From NCBI RefSeq assembly GCF_008831545.1, contig NZ_CP044523.1:2418001-2482000 (forward strand): DNA of 64,000 nt, in the 5' to 3' direction. The DNA comes from Halorussus halophilus (GTDB lineage: Archaea > Halobacteriota > Halobacteria > Halobacteriales > Haladaptataceae). This document shows, piece after piece, positions 17,990 to 54,086 of this stretch (positions are counted from its first letter, which is position 1; the number at the start of each line of letters is the position of its first letter). A model generated the notes under the pieces. The model was not told the origin of the DNA, did no database searches, and saw only the letters and a program-made list of their open reading frames with translations. The translations under genes and the position numbers were made by a program.

Positions 17990-18381
17990 TTTCGGGTGTG
18001 TGACTCGGTGTTATGTGGTGGTTTGTGTGGACGGGGCTAAACGCTCTCGGTTCTGTGTGTTCGTGGAATGGTCGTGAGAAGAGTGGTTTGTGTAATGAGT
18101 GCGACGAGAGCAGTCGATAGAGCGAACTCGGCAAACGGAATTGGACGAGTGAAGACCACTACTCACACGAAACATAGAACACCGCAACCACACGCCTCCC
18201 CATCCGACTGCGTTTCTCGGATTCGGAAGACGCGACCACATCGGGTCGCGTCTTTCGCGCTGTGATACTCATCCCTCGCGCGAGTCGCTCCTACCGTCGC
18301 TCCCGCGCGCCGGTTAGTCTGTGAAAATCCGAGACATAGTGACTCAGTAATCGCGCGGCCACTCAGACGAAACCCTCGTTT
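17990..18381. other. 392 bp gap inside the pab cluster, holding repeat R2
   Basis: It separates pabB from pabA, genes normally adjacent or fused. The middle is repeat R2 (18158-18312). The part next to pabA (17990-18150) is less GC-rich than the genes and contains GTGTG/CACAC-rich sequence that may carry a new promoter for pabA-pabC. No gene seen. Confidence 0.65.
18158..18312 (+). repeat. Structured intergenic repeat, copy R2 (short form)
   Basis: This copy has ACCGCAACCACACGCCTCCC, then hairpin H1 with a 14 bp stem (18224-18237 with 18244-18257, one G-T wobble) and a 6-nt loop, then CTCATCCCTCGCGCGAG and the CGCGCGCC end. It lacks hairpin H0 of R1 and R5. The H1 stem sequence differs from R1, and the differences are paired on both arms. 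Confidence 0.78.
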
Positions 18382-30320: not shown

Positions 30321-30473
30321 GCTAGCTACTCCCGATACCGAGAAGACCGCACCGCTCCGCACCGCGAGGGCCACACCCTCCCCAACCGATTCCTCATCCG
30401 CTCGCTATCGCTCGCTCCTTCGGACATCCCTCGCACGGAGTGGGCGCGAACTGAACTCTTGCCACCGCGCGAC
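30321..30473 (+). repeat. Structured intergenic repeat, copy R3
   Basis: It starts with GCTAGCTACTCCCGATACCG, followed by AGAAGACCGCACCGC, CACCCTCCCCAACCGATTCC, CATCCCTCGCACGGAGT and the end CCGCGCGAC. The middle is short and I see no H1-type 14 bp hairpin. A near-palindrome GTTGCTACGTAGTAAC lies 15 bases before the start; R6 has a closely related one at the same place. Confidence 0.78.
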
Positions 30474-35968: not shown

Positions 35969-36176
35969 GCTAACTACTCCCGAAACCGAGGAGAAACCGC
36001 ACCGCAACCGCGAGGGCCACACGCCTCCCCAACCGATTCCCGCCGCTCCCTGCGGTCGCTTCGGTCATCCACCGGAAGACTGCGCTTCGCTTGTCTTCCG
36101 AGCCTTCAGTCGCTACGCTCCTGAAGACCTCGCACGGGGTTTGGCGTGACCCAAGTGGTCACGCCAGCGCGCGCCA
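35969..36176 (+). repeat. Structured intergenic repeat, copy R4
   Basis: Start GCTAACTACTCCCGAAACCG, end GCGCGCGCCA. Internal hairpins are CGGAAGAC (36073-36080) with GTCTTCCG (36093-36100), CTTCAG (36104-36109) with CTGAAG (36121-36126), and TGGCGTGACC (36142-36151) with GGTCACGCCA (36157-36166). R6 has the first hairpin almost unchanged and the second with different but still complementary arms. Confidence 0.82.
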
Positions 36177-36212
36177 AGGTGGTGATCCCTTTTCGAATTT
36201 CCACCTTCCAAC

Positions 36213-36342
36213 TGGCGCGTGCGGTCGCGGCCCCGTGCCGCGACCTGTCCGTGCGAGGGACGAGCGAAGCGAGTCGGCTGGGGAGGGTGTGGCTGTCGCG
36301 GTGCTGTTCGGTGCGGTCTTCTCGGCACCGGGAGTAGCTAGC
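36213..36342 (-). repeat. Structured intergenic repeat, copy R4' (reverse)
   Basis: On the minus strand it starts GCTAGCTACTCCCGGTGCCG, runs through ACCGCACCGAACAGCACCGC, and ends with hairpin GGTCGCGG/CCGCGACC (arms at 36238-36245 and 36223-36230) and GCACGCGCCA. The central H1 region is missing. Confidence 0.8.
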
Positions 36343-37660: not shown

Positions 37661-38218
37661 GGTTTCAGGAGTGTTTCGGTAGTTGCTACAGTTATCGCTG
37701 GATTCTCGAAGGTTGCTGCATCGAAGCTAGCAATCGCTGTCAGTTGTTCTGTTGCAGCTTTTTCAGAAGAGATGATTCCTGCGTCGAAGCTAGCTATTGC
37801 CGGTGCTTCGGAGAGACCGCACCGCACAGCACCGCATGAGCCACACGCTCGCGGCTTCGCCGCTCGCAATCCGAGGCCCGCTCTCCGCACCACCGGAGGA
37901 CAAACCGCGTCCGCCGAGGCCACCCTCGCATTCGCTCGCGTGACCGCCCGCGCGCCTCGCGTTCCTCCCCACCCGACTGCGGTCCTCAGTTTCGGACGAC
38001 GCGACCCGACATGGTCGCGTCGTCCGCGTTGTGGTCCTCGTCCCTCGCGCGGAGTTTGGTCGCGGTCTGCCGCCCGCGACCACCGCGCGCCAGGTTGGAA
38101 GACGAATCAATCGAAATTCTCCAAAACGTTCCATCGAAACCCACTCCCAAATCTCGCGCTGGTAAGAATCCCCCAACGCCGACACGCTTTTGCCAGTGCC
38201 GACAGTACCGTTGGCTAC
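37661..38218. other. Intergenic region filled by repeat R5
   Basis: 558 bp between the Nudix gene and a small candidate ORF. R5 covers 37789-38092. Upstream of R5, CTGCATCGAAGCTAGCAAT (near 37716) and CTGCGTCGAAGCTAGCTAT (near 37779) form an imperfect direct repeat about 62 bp apart, the second overlapping the R5 start. The last 100 bp hold a TATA-like GACACGCTTTTGCC. Confidence 0.6.
37789..38092 (+). repeat. Structured intergenic repeat, copy R5 (longest)
   Basis: Start GCTAGCTATTGCCGG, then ACCGCACCGCACAGCACCGC as in R1. It has hairpin H0 (GGAGGAC...GTCCGCC), H1 with a perfect 14 bp stem (37993-38006 with 38013-38026) and 6-nt loop, and H2 with 9 bp (38057-38065 with 38074-38082), ending CGCGCGCCA. 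H1 differs from R1 at three stem positions, all compensated on the other arm. An extra CTCGCGGCTTCGCCGCTCG palindrome is inserted near 37850. Confidence 0.85.
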
Positions 38219-41765: not shown

Positions 41766-42093
41766 CTAGTCGTCGTGACCTCGGCCGTGGTTCTTCTCGT
41801 GGCCTTTCCCGCGACCTTTGTCGTGACCCTTGCCCTTCCCTTTCTGGTGGCCCTTCCCTCGGCCCTTCTCGTGGCCCTTGCTCTTTCCATTTCCGTGCCC
41901 GTCCTTCCGACCACGGTCGGATTCGTCGTCGGTGTCGTCGGTGGCTGCTTTCTCCTCGTGCTTGTCGTCGTCTTCGTGGTCGTCTTCGTCTCGCTCACCT
42001 TCGCTGTCTCGGTCGTCTTCGTCTCGCTCACCGTCGCCGTCTTGGTCGTCTTCGTCTCGCTCACCGTCGCCGTCTTGGTCGTCTTCGTCACGT
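41766..42093 (-). repeat. Tandem coding repeats in the secreted protein tail
   Basis: 33-base units encoding DEDDQDGDGER lie within about 41985-42093 (two nearly identical, two diverged). About 24-base units encoding KGHxKGxG lie within 41766-41890. Such near-identical units are prone to slippage, so tail length may vary between strains. Confidence 0.7.
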
Positions 42094-43202
42094 CCTCGTG
42101 GAACTAACCGAACGTCTGCGCAGCCGGTGACTTGCCGATCCTCGTCGGTCTTCGCAGTGAACTTCAGCTGGTCGGTGTCCCAATCCACCCCCGTCTCGGG
42201 AATGCGGAAGTGCAGGAGCACGTCCGCGAGGTCGTCGCCGTCAACGTCGGGTTCCTCGACGTGCTCGACGCGCGCTCCGCCCGGTCCGAATCTCGCCGTG
42301 CTGGCGTCGAGGTTCCCCGCCGCGAACGTCTCGGTCGAGAAGAGCGCGAGTTGCAGACGACCGTTGCTACGCGGATTGATGCGGTCCTGCACGATTCTCA
42401 CTGTCGCATCAACTGGACCCGAGCCTTTGGCGTTCGAGTCGTCACTCTCGTCTGAGCCACCTGTTCCACCCGAACCGCACGCACCCGCTCGAATCGTAAT
42501 CGGTTCGTCCATCGCAAGCGAGACTCGCTCTGGGTCACTCCGGTCGCCGGAGAGGACCCGCCAGTCGGTAATCTCGCCCTCGTAGTGGTCGCCGTACAGT
42601 TCGGCTGCCTCGTTGAACGCGGGGCGAATCGTGACTTCGAACGCCTCGCCGAGCGGGCTGTAGACCCCGCCGTCCGACCGGCCGCTGGTCCACGTCCAAT
42701 CGACCTGCCAACCGGAGTCTGTCTCAGTAAACTGGTCGTAATTGCTCGGCGCGTCGTAGATGTCGTCGCCGACGACCCACTCGCCGCCGGTCAGGTTCTC
42801 GAACTCGAAGGTGACCGACCCGCCGCTGGTTCCGTCGTTCAGCTTGTCGTGGAGGACGACGAGACTCAGCCCCTCCGGTCCGTCGTAGAGGAACAGTAGA
42901 CTCGTCTCGGGTCGCTGGAGGTCGGTCGTTCCGTAGGAGCTGTACGCCGACCCTGACGGGTCCGAAAAGGGCGTCCGGTAGTCGTAGAACTCCGACACTG
43001 GTTCGTCGCCGGAGAGTGCGGCGAGCGGGACACAGCGGTCGCCCTGCTCGACGACGTAGTTCGACGCTGTGGTGGTCGCGTTCGCACCGGACAGTGACCC
43101 GCGAGCAAGTGGGGCGAAACCGCTGACACCGAGACCGATTGCAGCGGCCGAGAGGAACTGGCGTCGCTCGACACCGTCAGCGGAGGGAGGTCGTTCGGGC
43201 AT
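41766..43202 (-). CDS. Secreted protein with acidic and Lys/His-rich repeat tail
   Basis: The 478-residue protein begins with a twin-arginine-type signal (VERRQFLSAAAIGLGVSG). Residues about 45-245 form an unrecognised extracellular beta-rich region. Residues about 265-370 match a widespread secreted domain (VQDRINPRSNGRLQLALFST, ARFGPGGA, DVDGDDLADVLLHFR). The tail has four tandem 11-residue acidic repeats (DEDDQDGDGER type), then a basic stretch of 8-residue units (KGHEKGRG, KGHQKGKG, KGHDKGRG) ending RGHDD. Ligand and partner are unknown; the tail could bind metal, DNA, polyphosphate or glycans. Confidence 0.78.
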   Translation of the reverse strand: MPERPPSADGVERRQFLSAAAIGLGVSGFAPLARGSLSGANATTTASNYVVEQGDRCVPLAALSGDEPVSEFYDYRTPFSDPSGSAYSSYGTTDLQRPETSLLFLYDGPEGLSLVVLHDKLNDGTSGGSVTFEFENLTGGEWVVGDDIYDAPSNYDQFTETDSGWQVDWTWTSGRSDGGVYSPLGEAFEVTIRPAFNEAAELYGDHYEGEITDWRVLSGDRSDPERVSLAMDEPITIRAGACGSGGTGGSDESDDSNAKGSGPVDATVRIVQDRINPRSNGRLQLALFSTETFAAGNLDASTARFGPGGARVEHVEEPDVDGDDLADVLLHFRIPETGVDWDTDQLKFTAKTDEDRQVTGCADVRLVPRGRDEDDQDGDGERDEDDQDGDGERDEDDRDSEGERDEDDHEDDDKHEEKAATDDTDDESDRGRKDGHGNGKSKGHEKGRGKGHQKGKGKGHDKGRGKGHEKNHGRGHDD

Positions 43203-53839: not shown

Positions 53840-54038
53840 GGCGCGCGGTGGAGCGAGTTCATCTCGCGCCAAGTTCGCGCGAGGTCTTGGCGAACGAATG
53901 TGAGCCAAGGCTCGGAAGACAAGCTAAGCGCAGTCTTCCGGTGGATGAGCGAACGAACGTGAGCGAATCGGTTGGGGAGGTGAGTGGCTGATGCGGTTGC
54001 GGTGCGGAGCGGTCTTCTCGGTTTCGGGAGTAGCTAGC
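53840..54038 (-). repeat. Structured intergenic repeat, copy R6
   Basis: On the minus strand it starts GCTAGCTACTCCCGAAACCG, then AGAAGACCGCTCCGC, and ends CCGCGCGCC. Hairpins are CGGAAGAC (53913-53920) with GTCTTCCG (53933-53940), CTTGGC (53886-53891) with GCCAAG (53904-53909), and TGGAGCGAG (53849-53857) with CTCGCGCCA (53863-53871, one mismatch). The second stem is a different sequence from R4 but still paired. Confidence 0.8.
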
Positions 54039-54086
54039 ATCACCGCGTTCGTCGTTACGTAGTAACCAGTACGACCGCAGTTTCTT

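Follow-up and report, generated by a model that had tools for sequence, protein, structure and literature searches.

A Halorussus genome carries, between its genes, a family of palindromic repeats whose complete form joins two inverted arms, R and R', across a short core. The copy studied here is a 374-bp element in the window, i.e. the 64-kb stretch of DNA that was analysed (C1:2418001-2482000 of a 4.45-Mb Halorussus genome; Haladaptataceae). We found the head-on pair with its core of about 40 bp to be a regular, complete form of the repeat and a standing architecture. R ranks with the most frequent features between the genes here. In the interpretation we favour, at roughly even confidence, this is an old, non-coding, non-autonomous, BIME/foldback-like palindromic family with nested movable modules, and the 374 bp represent one complete copy. 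The label was chosen because R is patchy, high-copy, intergenic and structure-conserving and carries movable modules. The unit is a single asymmetric arm R, and Haladaptataceae regularly have two of them head-on around the fixed core as one foldback element. In this model, the outward strand of each arm might fold as DNA, either while single-stranded at the replication fork or in a cruciform. Arms and modules would owe their spread to a trans-acting enzyme with specificity for folded DNA, which leaves no target duplication, and the pair would be stably inherited at many sites while being lost or replaced at others.

Architecture of the element and its family

The element occupies the gap between an aminotransferase gene (end 35786) and a small gene (start 36493), both on the plus strand. 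GCTAACTACTCCCG at one outer end (35969-35982) is repeated in inverted form as CGGGAGTAGCTAGC at the other (36329-36342), and the whole element folds into a single branched hairpin (DNA MFE -142.2 vs -78.8 +/- 4.8 in shuffles; z = -13.2; 0/100 shuffles). The inverted 374-bp element proposed in a preliminary description is therefore real, while the 36-bp gap given there between the two repeats has to be corrected to a core of 38 bp (Table 1). The halves are unequal, with a left arm of 207 bp and a right arm of 129 bp, mainly because a 58-bp two-hairpin module of the left arm has no counterpart in the right one. Outward from the middle, an arm consists of GGCGCGCG..., helix P1 enclosing hairpin P2, the optional two-hairpin module, P3, GAATCGGTTGGGGAGG-GTGTGG, a G/T-rich tail and the outer end. 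Further R copies or fragments lie in the window at 1887-2123, 18188-18284, 30321-30430, 37783-38101 and 53876-54052, some of them variants with other hairpins.

Table 1. Parts of the 374-bp element (window coordinates; the strand of an arm is its structured, outward strand)
Feature	Positions	Strand	Remarks
Complete two-armed element R-core-R'	35969..36342	.	ends are inverted copies; z of -13.2 for the DNA fold; among the 31 head-on pairs
Left arm R	35969..36175	-	structured (outward) strand is minus; reads GGCGCGCGC...GGGAGTAGTTAGC
Core, 38 bp, AAGGTGGTGATCCCTTTTCGAATTTCCACCTTCCAACT	36176..36213	.	centred family motif cAGTTTCGCGnAT; cores ~40 bp in the family
Right arm R'	36214..36342	+	reads GGCGCGTGC...GGGAGTAGCTAGC
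Left head, helix P1 around hairpin P2	36128..36175	-	P2 at 36142-36166
Movable module H1-H2, two hairpins	36071..36128	-	H1 36102-36128, H2 36073-36100; right arm without module
Deeply conserved block GAATCGGTTGGGGAGGCGTGTGG, left arm	36017..36039	-	
Outer end, left, CGGGAGTAGTTAGC	35969..35982	-	
Right head, P1 around P2	36214..36258	+	P2 at 36223-36245
Short hairpin P3 GACGAGCGAAGCGAGTC, right arm	36259..36275	+	
Deeply conserved block GAGTCGGCTGGGGAGGGTGTGG, right arm	36271..36292	+	
Outer end, right, CGGGAGTAGCTAGC	36329..36342	+	

Own-genome loci were collected through BLAST of the element and an end-pattern search, yielding 100 loci, so that the counts are lower bounds. The end-pattern search returned 174 matches at up to two mismatches (47 in a reversed control), and a tail profile identified at least 127 R arms on the 100 loci. 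Arms measure about 130-250 bp and comprise P1 with P2, a tail bearing the conserved GGGGAGG block and the outer end GTAGCTAGC; in every copy folded, the outward strand folded better than the opposite one. Single arms, as discrete units, are the other common form. A search for further head-on or tandem pairs, as suggested in the preliminary description, returned 33 R neighbours within 700 bp, among them 31 head-on, one tail-to-tail and one tandem (binomial p 6.6e-17). Facing GCGCGCC/GGCGCG ends are separated by 38-42 bp in nearly all cases. Core sequences vary between own-genome pairs; their shared motif holds 11.0 bits of information, compared with at most 6.9 in shuffled cores, and sits centrally (mean offset from the core centre -0.05, sd 2.5).

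These figures bear on how the two arms came to face each other. It is barely credible that they are unrelated R insertions facing by chance: the arms of a pair do differ in P2 and module content, but the 31/33 orientation bias and the fixed core length refute chance as a general account. Neither is the geometry that of a joint made during transposition, as had been proposed, since the head-on form is regular, its core is fixed, it recurs at orthologous sites, and paired arms are no more alike than others (identity 0.787 within pairs vs 0.800 between pairs). From this last comparison it also follows that neither arm of an element serves to correct the other.

Based on simple codon-usage gene calls, none of 96 elements overlapped a predicted gene; the nearest genes were at least 61 bp away, and at least 72 bp for pairs. 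Gaps holding pairs were divergent in 13 cases and convergent in two (p 0.007), a preference that may merely be a product of gap length, and own-genome elements showed no fixed direction of R relative to genes. Beyond the terminal GCTAGC, flanks start with TTC and their outward strand is C-rich and G-poor, and the outer ends of pairs keep a fairly constant distance of 72-200 bp from both neighbouring genes, 3' gene ends included. The element may extend past GCTAGC. Roughly one copy in four, as judged by eye, continues into a second structured element, X. This intergenic element consists of GGTGGRACTGAAAGGGGCCG, a long stem and then CGGGGGCTTTCGA (e.g. L101:4330-4500 in Halorussus aquaticus; L162, L164, L165), and stands alone or fused to R, in a relative orientation that depends on the genus; it adjoins R in many own copies.

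Upkeep of pairing in the hairpins

The helices of the arms retain their pairing while their sequence changes. In the P2 pairs of 28 heads, we counted two-sided changes in 52 cells and one-sided changes in 3, whereas the only changes in P1 of these heads were to G-U (16 cells, zero A-C; 36 vs 2 in a second count). Among 115 distinct P2 hairpins there were 1072 Watson-Crick, 11 G-T, 7 A-C and 30 other pairs, and two other anchored hairpin sets had 98 and 239 Watson-Crick pairs, with one G-T and one A-C. A tolerance of G-U far above that of A-C was thus seen in P1, but not in P2, H2 or H4. RNA helices usually hold far more G-U than A-C pairs. The near-perfect pairing, with G-T close to A-C, therefore points to P2-type hairpins being maintained at the DNA level, for which intrastrand template switching over short loops would be the simplest route; in our model, it is what would keep the short hairpins perfect. 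Either single-stranded DNA or RNA would be compatible with P1 and with the fixed tandem G-A motifs of H1. R offers a natural test case for how hairpin DNA keeps its pairing while its sequence changes.

On the other hand, each arm might be an outward-transcribed structured RNA or part of an mRNA, making the pair two divergent RNA genes, which we regard as unlikely. Compensatory changes in P2, the better folding of the outward strand, the admission of G-U but hardly any A-C in P1 and the G-A motifs of H1 all agree with it. It is opposed by the near absence of G-U from P2 and the other hairpins (G-T vs A-C 11 vs 7 and 1 vs 1) and by the lack of a fixed orientation to genes, and Rfam scans of the window and five loci returned nothing meaningful. 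We also considered the core as a divergent promoter and rejected this, as no TATA-like element was visible by eye in own-genome or Haladaptatus cores.

Local copying and relation to known mobile elements

The preliminary description had taken the head-on geometry as a sign that the repeats move. The geometry is no such sign, but the repeats are dispersed, high-copy, non-coding and patchy between species, and blocks have been copied between loci. The loci L038 (C1:747300) and L059 (C1:2525604) share a 126-bp nested hairpin module that is 99% identical, although the copies are otherwise only ~78% alike, and this shared module is a recent local copying event. A second copied block (172 bp at 96%) covers nearly an entire arm. 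The H1-H2 module occupies one exact site, filled in 30 copies and empty in 65, and in a few copies it lies inside other hairpins. Mobility is thereby supported for the R family, not for the pair at 35969-36342 as a unit. Pairs as recently copied units were rejected, as the two arms within a pair show no particular likeness and cores differ.

A classical MITE, i.e. a DDE transposon derivative that is bounded by long terminal inverted repeats and not autonomous, is very unlikely. R resembles MITEs and foldback elements in being inverted-repeat, non-coding and dispersed, and copies are short (about 250-570 bp), numerous, without coding capacity and bounded by terminal inverted repeats as in MITEs. 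However, we found no target duplication, the flanks of the 15 pairs with both ends complete being about as similar as expected by chance whatever the offset, and it is for this reason that we do not classify R as a MITE in the strict sense, as had been suggested. Nor was an autonomous partner found: where facing R ends lie 3-5 kb apart, the predicted genes found between them are housekeeping genes and no transposase was found (some of these intervals being partly read), and a long autonomous form R-transposase-R' was rejected accordingly. Besides, single arms are common discrete units and the arms within a copy evolve independently, unlike in MITEs and foldback elements.

Bacterial REP/BIME repeats (PMC2817692, PMC3733652) are likewise high-copy intergenic palindromic units, often in opposite orientation. 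R shares this alternating orientation but not the size of the unit, REPs being 20-40 bp palindromes with a GTAG or CGTC tag (PMC2817692, PMC3733652), while R is archaeal, 130-250 bp long, has several hairpins and a fixed 40-bp core, and comes with no RAYT-type Y1 transposase seen on the chromosome; the only two Y1 transposase genes of the genome are both on contig C3. Among haloarchaeal repeats, the small mobile repeats (SMRs) of Haloquadratum also have inverted ends and lack a target duplication, and the nested hairpin modules of R recall the insertion of SMRs into palindromes (PMC3119063). SMRs are, however, 80-110 bp long, near identical and demonstrated by strain-specific insertions (PMC3119063), whereas R copies are larger and ~80% alike, which sets R apart in size and homogeneity. 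The PATEs of Haloquadratum are, like R, non-coding and palindrome-containing and without target duplication, yet they lack terminal inverted repeats and share their ends with IS605-type transposons (PMC3119063); the complete R element is bounded by an inverted repeat, and nothing seen here links it to IS605. Searches of the open literature, with the repeat's own sequence among the queries, found no description of the R family. A family that spans several haloarchaeal family-level groups is thus without a description in the literature searched or in Rfam.

Persistence and turnover among relatives

A 20-nt block of R matched 73 times in its own genome and 0-43 times in five other Halorussus genomes sampled, and it occurred in 64 of 292 genomes of the class, from 21 of 77 genera, with a control near zero; this pattern misses a variant abundant in G003. 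One genome, G009, seems to be without the family. Haladaptatus has the same head-on architecture with related cores, while 24 loci outside Haladaptataceae, from four genomes that represent three further family-level groups, showed single arms only. The head-on form is therefore a Haladaptataceae architecture, and R is probably the older unit from which the pair derives. Phage records gave no match to R; haloarchaeal plasmids gave three.

We compared the aminotransferase-small gene gap among syntenic congeners, which are species-level relatives. Where our genome has the pair, G002, G006, G008, G010 and G011 have one R-like arm, oriented like the right arm; G003, G004 and G017 have element X; and G012, G014, G015 and G016 have neither. 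Relatives thus differ at this site, as opposed to the uniform presence of the pair that the preliminary description had named as speaking for fixed sequence; where R is missing, the flanks cannot be matched nucleotide by nucleotide, and neither a clean empty site nor an insertion limited to one strain was seen among these species-level relatives. Four species share the pair at the nth locus (our genome, G006, G011, G013), and G016 lacks it. The hisA locus has a pair in two species and one arm in a third, other species have single arms at purM, and the four compared at the 1595855 locus have none. R sites outlast speciation, yet they turn over. Orthologous pairs keep the core motif and the arms, ~80% alike, even though their flanks are unalignable. 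As orthologous tails are overall no closer than paralogous ones (0.79 vs 0.80), vertical inheritance of R rests on position, not on sequence.

This persistence also fits selection for function, and the chief alternative to the mobile-element reading is that the core serves the host. R-core-R' might be a functional chromosomal DNA site, in which a protein sits on the centred motif, the arms around it work as cruciforms or insulators and selection acts on structure rather than sequence; we consider this doubtful, though a serious possibility. It would account for the fixed core length and central motif, for pairs retained in up to four species and for a placement that is always intergenic. It would not account for copy numbers that range from 0 to dozens among congeneric species, for complete sister species without pairs at given sites, or for the restriction to single arms outside Haladaptataceae. 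Rather doubtful, too, is a haloarchaeal site class defined by DNA shape and not by sequence, with a fixed, protein-bound 40-bp core, arm hairpins free to adopt almost any sequence provided that pairing stays perfect, renewal by hairpin-templated repair and retention at orthologous intergenic sites in the service of a chromosome-level role. The favoured account of a palindromic, module-bearing family, for its part, gives the 40-bp core motif no role, and the G-U tolerance of P1 is what would be expected of a functional single strand, be it RNA or single-stranded DNA. With the R family it can be asked whether palindromic repeats in archaea are selfish or useful to the chromosome, and the two-armed element with its fixed core is a practical bait with which to identify the protein concerned.

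Two tandem repeats were observed in passing. In the nth gap of Halorussus salilacus (G006; L278), a ~33-bp unit, GAAGCTAGCTGGCTCCGAAAGGTGATCCACCGA, is repeated about six times in tandem immediately beyond the R outer end. Within the window, a 33-bp tandem repeat at 41953-42117 belongs to the Asp/Glu-rich C-terminal part of ORF 41766-43202 (minus strand).
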